In this document: piece after piece, positions 27,604 through 29,274 of the stretch | Layout: every line of letters begins with the position of its first letter | How positions within the stretch are numbered: the first letter of the stretch is position 1 | Source: Candidatus Neomarinimicrobiota bacterium | Lineage (GTDB): Bacteria; Fidelibacterota; Marinisomatia; Marinisomatales; S15-B10 | DNA length: 64,000 bases | Assembly: GCA_012964825.1 (NCBI GenBank) | Contig: DTTI01000084.1 | Span: 1-64,000 of the forward strand | Direction of reading: 5' to 3' | Made by a program: the position numbers and the translations under genes | The notes under the pieces: model-generated | The model's database searches: none | What the model was told of the DNA's origin: nothing | The model's input: only the letters and a program-made list of their open reading frames with translations

Positions 27604-27650
27604 TCTATAGTTTCAACATCTTTATTTTTTCGTGCAATTGGACTAAATTT

Positions 27651-27665
27651 GTACGCTTTTTGTAC
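27651..27665 (+). promoter_or_regulatory. Candidate LexA operator, GTAC-N7-GTAC
   Basis: Two GTAC half-sites separated by exactly 7 bp (GTACGCTTTTTGTAC) lie 2 bp upstream of the lexA ATG, each preceded by TT. The layout resembles the alphaproteobacterial LexA site GTTC-N7-GTTC and the GTAC-type cyanobacterial site. Autorepression of lexA is almost universal, so this is a reasonable operator candidate, though no second copy was found in the window. Confidence 0.45.
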
Positions 27666-27667
27666 TC

Positions 27668-28279
27668 ATGTTCTTAACGAAGCGACAGAAAGAAATTTTC
27701 GACTACCTGAGAGGATATATCTCAAGGCATGGCTATGCACCCACCTTTGATGAAATTGCTTCAAGTTTCGGGTTTACATCAAAAGGCACCGTCTATAAGC
27801 ACATTCGGGCGCTAAAAGAGAAGGGGGCCATTCGTCACGAGTGGAACAGAACTCGTTCCATTGAACTCCATCCAGCCGATTCCTCCTTCAACACCCTTGA
27901 AGTGTTAGGAATGGTAGCTGCCGGAAAACCGATTGATGCCATTTCAAACCCGGAGGTCATTGAGGTTCCCGCATCATTTCTCCGGCGCGGCAAACACTAT
28001 GTTCTAAAAGTGTCAGGCGATTCCATGATAGAAGAACATATTCAAGATGGCGACTTTGTCATTGTACAAGAAAAAATTGAAGCTCAAAATGGTCAGACTA
28101 TTGTGGCGTTAATTGACGATCAGGAGGCAACCATAAAAAAACTTTATCTCCGCAATGATGAGATAGAATTAAGACCAGCAAACAGAACATTAGATCCTGT
28201 GATATACTCAGTGGACAGGGTGAGAATACAGGGCGTGGTGGTTGGTGTTATGCGGAAATACAACGGAGAGTTGTTATGA
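27668..28279 (+). CDS. lexA: SOS repressor LexA
   Basis: The 203-residue protein has the LexA winged-helix N-domain (FLTKRQKEIFDYL, then GYAPTFDEIASSFGF). The self-cleavage site is A85-G86 in GMVAAGKP, with catalytic Ser119 in SGDSM and Lys157 in EATIKK. It represses DNA-damage genes until RecA filaments trigger autoproteolysis. It follows dnaA by 64 bp, with a candidate operator at its own start codon. Its stop overlaps the start of the UGA-containing peroxiredoxin gene (ATGA), which would place an antioxidant enzyme under the same transcript. Confidence 0.95.
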   Translation: MFLTKRQKEIFDYLRGYISRHGYAPTFDEIASSFGFTSKGTVYKHIRALKEKGAIRHEWNRTRSIELHPADSSFNTLEVLGMVAAGKPIDAISNPEVIEVPASFLRRGKHYVLKVSGDSMIEEHIQDGDFVIVQEKIEAQNGQTIVALIDDQEATIKKLYLRNDEIELRPANRTLDPVIYSVDRVRIQGVVVGVMRKYNGELL

Positions 28280-28728
28280 TTGAAGTTGGTGAAACAGTAG
28301 ACGATTTGACATTGTTAGACCATAACGGCGAGCATAGAAGTCTGGAGACCTCCAGGAAAAAGGTGATTTTTTGTTTCCCCAAAGCAAGCACTCCAGGATG
28401 AACGATTGAAGCGACTGAGTTTCAGTCGATATTGAAAAGGTTTGAAAGGAGAAATGTTGATGTTTATGGTCTGTCCGCTGACCCGCCCAAGGCTCTGAAG
28501 AAATTTGTGGTTAAATGTGGTCTCACCTACCCGCTTCTAAGCAATGAAAACCACATGATGCTAGACAAGTTGGGTGTGTGGGGAGCCAAGAAAATGTACG
28601 GGAAGCAATATGAAGGTGTCATGCGGGGTACCATCGTTCTAGATGAAAACAATGTAGTTATTCACACATTCCCAAAAGCCTCGCCAAAAGGTCACGCTGA
28701 GGAAGTAGCTAAGACTCTTGCAGTATAA
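28276..28728 (+). CDS. Bcp/PrxQ-type peroxiredoxin, probable selenoprotein (UGA at codon 42)
   Basis: The frame starts at the ATG at 28276, overlapping the lexA stop. It encodes 41 residues ending FPKASTPG, then TGA at 28399-28401, then TIEATEFQ and 100 more Bcp-like residues to the TAA at 28728, 150 codons in all. Bcp/PrxQ proteins have P-x-x-x-T-x-x-C at this place; here the peroxidatic cysteine is the UGA, giving TPG-U-T. A hairpin fitting a bacterial SECIS follows. Sequence on both sides is intact, so this is unlikely to be a decayed gene. Cys at +5 is absent (Thr47); Cys81 could be the resolving residue. The enzyme would reduce hydroperoxides with thiol reductants. Sec machinery is not in the window. 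A start at 28432 would give a truncated, inactive protein. Confidence 0.82.
28412..28428 (+). promoter_or_regulatory. Candidate bacterial SECIS hairpin
   Basis: CGACTGA (28412-28418), loop GTT and TCAGTCG (28422-28428) form a perfect 7-bp stem. Seventeen bases separate the UGA from the first loop base, which is G followed by U. Known bacterial SECIS elements have a G early in a small apical loop at about 16-37 nt after UGA. The hairpin is within the coding sequence, as required. Confidence 0.75.
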
Positions 28729-28731
28729 TTG

Positions 28732-29274
28732 ATGAAACTGATTACAGAAGAGAGTCAGCTTCTTGTGATTGATGTGCAGGAGAAGATATTTGCTGTCATG
28801 CAAGAACAGGAACAGACCAAGAAAAATATCTGTCGGCTTATTAAAGGTATCAGAGTTTTGGGTATTCCCATCAATTGGACCGAACAGTACCCGGCCGGGT
28901 TGGGCCCCACAATGAGCGAGGTAGCTGCGGCCCTGAACAGCACGGAAAGAATGGAAAAGATAACATTCAGTTGCTTGGGTGATAATATTGTATCGGAAAA
29001 GATAAAATCTTATGAGAAGAGACAGATTTTGGTCTGCGGAATTGAGACACATGTCTGTGTTTATCAGACCGTACAGGATCTGCTGATAGAAGGTTACGAG
29101 GTGCATGTCGTCACTGACGCTGTCATGTCACGACACGAGTCGAACCACAATCTCGGCCTTCAAAAAATGGGAGCCCTGGGGGCTAATATGACCTCGGTAG
29201 AAATGGCTTTATTCGAACTACAGCAGGTAGCCAGCGGTGACAACTTCAAGGCTATTGCGAGCATTATAAAATAA
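28732..29274 (+). CDS. Isochorismatase-family cysteine hydrolase
   Basis: From the ATG at 28732 (a TTG codon is directly before it) the protein has 180 residues. The catalytic triad of the family is visible: Asp14 in LVIDVQEK, Lys76 in MEKITFS and Cys109 in CGIETHVCVYQT, with the cis-peptide-bearing GIETHVC loop. Members hydrolyse isochorismate, nicotinamide or other small amides. The sequence is closest in feel to the hydrolases often named YcaC-like or nicotinamidase-related, and the substrate is not certain. It follows the peroxiredoxin by 3 bp and is probably co-transcribed. Confidence 0.88.
   Translation: MKLITEESQLLVIDVQEKIFAVMQEQEQTKKNICRLIKGIRVLGIPINWTEQYPAGLGPTMSEVAAALNSTERMEKITFSCLGDNIVSEKIKSYEKRQILVCGIETHVCVYQTVQDLLIEGYEVHVVTDAVMSRHESNHNLGLQKMGALGANMTSVEMALFELQQVASGDNFKAIASIIK

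Follow-up and report, generated by a model that had tools for sequence, protein, structure and literature searches.

The locus lies on the forward strand of the window, the 64,000-nucleotide stretch of contig DTTI01000084.1 that was analysed, and comprises lexA (27668–28279; Pfam LexA_DNA_bind and Peptidase_S24), a Bcp/PrxQ-type peroxiredoxin ORF identified by domain and fold matches (28276–28728) and a gene for an isochorismatase-family hydrolase (28729–29274; PF00857). The peroxiredoxin ORF extends from an ATG at 28276 to a TAA stop at 28726–28728, a total of 150 codons read through a sole in-frame TGA at 28399–28401 (codon 42) in the window translation. As described in an earlier note on this DNA, the codons preceding the TGA encode FPKASTPG, and those following it continue in the same frame with TIEATEFQ. 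Standard ORF calling at this position returned only a truncated ORF with a TTG start (28432–28728), exactly the gene that the note expected most pipelines to call. In the read-through protein, Cys is present only at positions 33 and 81, and the +5 position relative to codon 42, where a resolving Cys was expected, is occupied by Thr47, as the note had also observed.

The read-through protein matches PF00578 (AhpC-TSA; E value 8e-25) and PF08534 (Redoxin; E value 4e-16) over residues 4–144. The top-scoring model was the Bcp model NF006960 (E value 2e-33), yet its 115.3 bits fall below the equivalog cut-off of 140, and this score by itself does not decide the Bcp/PrxQ subfamily. The PxxxT/SxxC motif of the family is present as P35-K-A-S-T39-P-G-U42, placing the UGA at the peroxidatic position, in agreement with the earlier note; T39, position 42 and the conserved active-site Arg (R117) are invariant among 41 aligned sequences. 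Because of Thr47, the protein lacks the +5 resolving Cys (CR) that defines an atypical 2-Cys PrxQ. An AlphaFold2 model (mean pLDDT 96.3, pTM 0.91) places U42 at the beginning of helix 40–51 and Cys81 at the end of helix 71–81, and its best structural matches in Foldseek were Bcp/PrxQ proteins (TM 0.86–0.95). As modelled, the Bcp fold is intact across the TGA.

The genome that holds the window is a metagenome-type assembly of 2.21 Mb in 84 contigs, with a completeness of 97.6 %. Since TGA is one base removed from both TGT and TGC, an error in a single assembly of this type could in principle have converted an ordinary Cys peroxiredoxin into the ORF seen here. However, a separate assembly (PAWD01000033.1, locus L016), which carries several other substitutions relative to the window, yielded the gene with an identical TGA, and TGA also occupies codon 42 in 24 further species of the order. 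With independent genomes refuting it in practice, we regard a sequencing or assembly error as having a negligible probability. The PAWD01000033.1 contig itself is filed as Thaumarchaeota archaeon SAT137, yet it encodes bacterial dnaA, lexA and peroxiredoxin genes and is 98 % identical to the window; it is a mislabelled or contaminated bin. As this contig belongs to a series of marine metagenomes and one Sec protein of the window's genome carries a Por secretion tail, the organism is probably a marine member of the FCB group; Marinimicrobia may be a fitting placement.

We searched 61 genomes of the order, counting as clear orthologs hits with an E value below 1e-20, and obtained clear orthologs in 49, of which 39 contain exactly one TGA and 10 contain none. 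When codon 42 was read at the DNA level in 30 orthologs, it was TGA in 25 and TGT in five, with no other stop codon in any of them; the placement of the TGA is not due to chance. Across 52 homologs, the aligned site carries TGA (28) or TGT/TGC (24) and nothing else, which is the Sec/Cys pattern that the earlier note proposed looking for in close relatives.

These data also bear on the possibility that the gene is a pseudogene, or that it yields a truncated product of 41 residues and is followed by an independent ORF starting at 28432, as the output of the standard caller, limited to the TTG ORF, might be taken to indicate. Compared with the same-genus orthologs L039 and L040, dN/dS is 0.14–0.17 upstream of the TGA and 0.13–0.14 downstream; both parts are therefore translated and constrained. 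Moreover, the TGA is held at one site throughout the order, and a fragment with this start would be missing the strands preceding the catalytic loop as well as the loop itself. We consider decay or truncation of the gene very improbable.

Alternatively, TGA might stand for a standard amino acid or be subject to non-specific read-through by near-cognate suppression; reassignment would equally leave a conserved gene with this codon in frame. Several observations argue against these readings. The adjoining lexA ends in a TGA (28277–28279), confirming the earlier remark that it uses this codon as a real stop. A codon-usage scan for TGA read-through proved insensitive, missing the known peroxiredoxin site itself. 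When uncovered ORFs joined by a TGA were scanned instead, the peroxiredoxin site was the sole convincing candidate in the window. Homologs show only Sec or Cys at the site, and tRNA-Sec, SelA, SelB and SelD are all encoded in the genome. Reassignment or unspecific suppression is accordingly a highly unlikely reading of codon 42.

The earlier note had named selA, selB, selC and selD as the genes to look for, and all four were found in the window's own genome. The selA gene (contig C58, 35591–36685, E value 5e-138) is directly followed by selB (C58, 36748–38604, E value 1e-105, 353 bits against a cut-off of 242), selD lies on contig C28 (E value 2e-121, 404 bits), and selC is represented by a tRNA-Sec scoring 63.9 bits against a gathering score of 47, which ARAGORN reported as tRNA-SeC with anticodon tca (UCA). 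Among the genomes of the order, selB, whole or in pieces, was detected in 37/39 with the TGA form and 4/10 with the Cys form (Fisher p = 3.6e-4, to be read as a guide only as the genomes are related). No selB was found in the TGA-form genomes G002 and G052 (91 % and 93 % complete, respectively), probably on account of incomplete assemblies.

Downstream of the UGA, we predicted a bacterial SECIS hairpin at 28412–28428 (CGACUGA-GUU-UCAGUCG, forward strand). Published limits for such bSECIS elements are a loop of 3–9 nt with a G in the first two loop positions, an upper stem of 4–16 bp, a distance of 16–37 nt from the UGA and a free energy of −7.5 kcal/mol or lower (PMC13188914). The window hairpin falls within them, with a 7-bp stem, a G-first 3-nt loop (GUU) starting 17 nt past the UGA and −7.7 kcal/mol as an isolated hairpin; a hairpin equally good follows 1.5 % of the 2349 TGAs in the window. 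In nine relatives, 90 % of the cells of the stem are paired, as opposed to 43 % or less when the stem is slid, and two of the seven pairs show covariation, one of which joins an amino-acid change (GAG to GGG) with a synonymous change (TTT to TTC). GUU triloops at an allowed distance also follow the UGA of three further putative Sec genes of the genome (selD, a second peroxiredoxin gene and a SelW-like gene), compared with 0.6 % of window TGAs, although the corresponding binomial value of 6e-9 overstates the case, the motif having been picked after it was seen.

The minimum-free-energy fold of 28399–28440 is a different hairpin (−13.3 kcal/mol, loop GACUGA, 11 nt past the UGA), and the SECIS form is therefore not the most stable fold in the window's species. 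In L039 and L040, the SECIS stem is down to 6 bp, at −5.3, weaker than the −7.5 guideline, and a contiguous-stem scan scored no good hairpin in L044. In 16 Sec orthologs of other families (within L049–L067), the hairpin is shifted to 21 nt and takes the form GGGRUUC-CGGGAU-GAAYUCC, with compensatory changes of its own. No comparable hairpin was found in the Cys orthologs L043, L047, L052 and L065, whereas the Cys ortholog L063 retains one. An Rfam search returned nothing relevant near the UGA.

With the full Sec machinery in the genome, an RNA signal after the codon and the same site in relatives, the UGA is almost certainly read as Sec. The Sec peroxiredoxin proposed in the earlier note is borne out by the machinery, the aligned Sec/Cys site and the SECIS-like hairpin with its compensatory changes, and we hold with high confidence that the gene encodes a cytosolic Bcp/PrxQ-type peroxiredoxin with selenocysteine (U42) as its peroxidatic residue, the UGA being decoded via SelB and the hairpin. 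Actual Sec insertion, peroxidase activity and the route of reduction are what we infer for this protein. Ribosomes reaching the UGA at 28399 would continue as the hairpin at 28412–28428 recruits SelB carrying Sec-tRNA-Sec, resulting in insertion of Sec. The U42 selenolate would then reduce hydroperoxides, yielding a selenenic acid. The thiol that would reduce it in turn could be Cys81, with thioredoxin acting next, or an external one acting directly.

The earlier note put forward Cys81 as the only candidate for a second redox residue. It stands as a possible partner but is not established as one: outside the window's genus, only two sister genera retain it. The combination of Cys33 and Cys81 is found in the window's genus and in genera g2 and g4, and no other Sec form has both. 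Among the Sec orthologs, a second Cys lies at +39 in the window clade and at +36 or +47 in others, and is missing from L044, L045, L056, L057, L058 and L061. No second Cys is conserved order-wide, and the families thus do not have an internal resolving Cys in common. Together with Thr47 in place of the +5 Cys, the differing or missing second Cys is consistent with a true 1-Sec mechanism within the Sec reading, in which the enzyme has no internal resolving residue and an external thiol reduces the selenenic acid; PrxQ variants without CR have been reported to be reduced by other systems (PMC5811025). Against it, Cys81 (+39), with which helix 71–81 ends, does not vary within the window clade, and the PrxQ of Xanthomonas campestris has its partner Cys at +36 in the equivalent helix, going by the titles of its PDB entries (C48S and C84S mutants, disulfide form). 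We give the 1-Sec mechanism a little under an even chance and regard reduction by an external thiol and by an internal Cys as about equally likely.

The X. campestris PrxQ (PDB 5iiz and others) is the best sequence match of the window protein among solved structures (E value 3e-20) and among its best fold matches (TM 0.83–0.91). Like the window protein, it has no +5 Cys and has a Cys in the next long helix, which in X. campestris is the partner. It differs in using an active-site Cys with the partner at +36, whereas the window protein has Sec and, one turn further along, Cys81 at +39.

Sec-containing Bcp-type peroxiredoxins are an already known selenoprotein family to which the window gene adds a member. 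Reports of Sec peroxiredoxins (COG1225/PF00578, TxxU) date from 2005 for the Sargasso Sea and from 2008 for GOS, and these proteins are common in marine samples, with 43 Sargasso Sea genes and 253 GOS genes (PMC1088965, PMC2398784, PMC13188914); the Prx family is listed among the established prokaryotic selenoproteins, and its PxxxTxxU motif has been described (PMC13188914). The window gene shares their COG and Pfam assignments, the peroxidatic Sec in PxxxTxxU and a bacterial SECIS just downstream, and there is no basic difference between them; the window copy has no +5 Cys and sits in a conserved dnaA–lexA–peroxiredoxin–isochorismatase locus. Its interest lies in being a clean case, with genome-wide support, of a selenoprotein truncated by standard gene calling and, for specialists, in the identity of the resolving residue in the absence of a +5 Cys and in the shifts of the SECIS hairpin inside one gene family.

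The order lexA–peroxiredoxin–isochorismatase is kept in the Sec-form loci L016, L039–L042, L044–L046 and L048, lexA remaining the immediate upstream neighbour and the isochorismatase-family gene the downstream one. A probable ribosome-binding site (GGAG, 28265–28268) and the ATGA in which the lexA stop codon overlaps the start codon of the peroxiredoxin gene fall within 28262–28279, and from this arrangement the two genes may be translationally coupled and are presumably co-transcribed. Just 5′ of the lexA start lies the TTTGTAC-repeat element TTTGTACGCTTTTTGTAC (27646–27667, forward strand), identical or nearly so in L016 and L039–L042, a candidate for a LexA operator of unusual type or a promoter of the lexA–peroxiredoxin unit. 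The operator pattern was not enriched genome-wide (seven matches against five for a reversed control), so LexA control of the unit is something we can only infer. The joint proposal that the SECIS hairpin moved between families of one order and that the window-clade enzyme belongs, tightly coupled, to a lexA operon is tentative and, taken as a whole, rather doubtful; if true, a peroxidase that depends on selenium would through this coupling be linked to the control of DNA damage. In genus g4 of the window's own family (L043, L047), a Cys form is positioned between dnaA and an M16 peptidase gene, lexA and the isochorismatase gene having been lost, while selB is present.

Sec is the usual state of the Bcp-type peroxiredoxin across this whole bacterial order, and the reduced-genome genus has Cys and no selB. 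In this genus, g19 (nine genomes, 0.8–1.0 Mb), the selB model gave EF-Tu-like matches only; its clear orthologs are without TGA, and its six Cys-form genomes are without selB. The gene tree (51 rows) needs about six Sec/Cys changes. Two Sec forms, L022 (from a Gemmatimonas bin) and L030 (from a Caldimicrobium bin), are placed among Cys forms in the tree and probably represent separate Cys-to-Sec changes.

The selenoproteome of the window's genome was sampled by family searches, covering SelW and thioredoxin in addition to peroxiredoxin and the Sec machinery. The selD gene (L014; C28, 53031–53957, reverse strand) has an in-frame TGA of its own (SHGAG-U-ACK), after which comes a GUU-loop hairpin with a 9-bp stem. 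The genome encodes two different Sec peroxiredoxins, the window gene and L068 (C69, 14380–14784, reverse strand). Like the window gene, L068 is Bcp-like with a peroxidatic TGA (ADTPG-U-TKEAC) and a GUU-triloop hairpin after the UGA, but it keeps the +5 Cys (U-TKEA-C), is only about 34 % identical and has an apparently hydrophobic N-terminus. The SelW-like gene (L080; C77, 15086–15301) encodes EYCSV-U (CxxU) and is followed by a GUU-triloop hairpin. Finally, a TlpA-like gene (L076; C22, 42484–42891) encodes the UxxC motif FFTSW-U-TSC. Its product, a selenoprotein, has a Por secretion tail (PF18962) at the C-terminus and is apparently exported through a type IX-like pathway.
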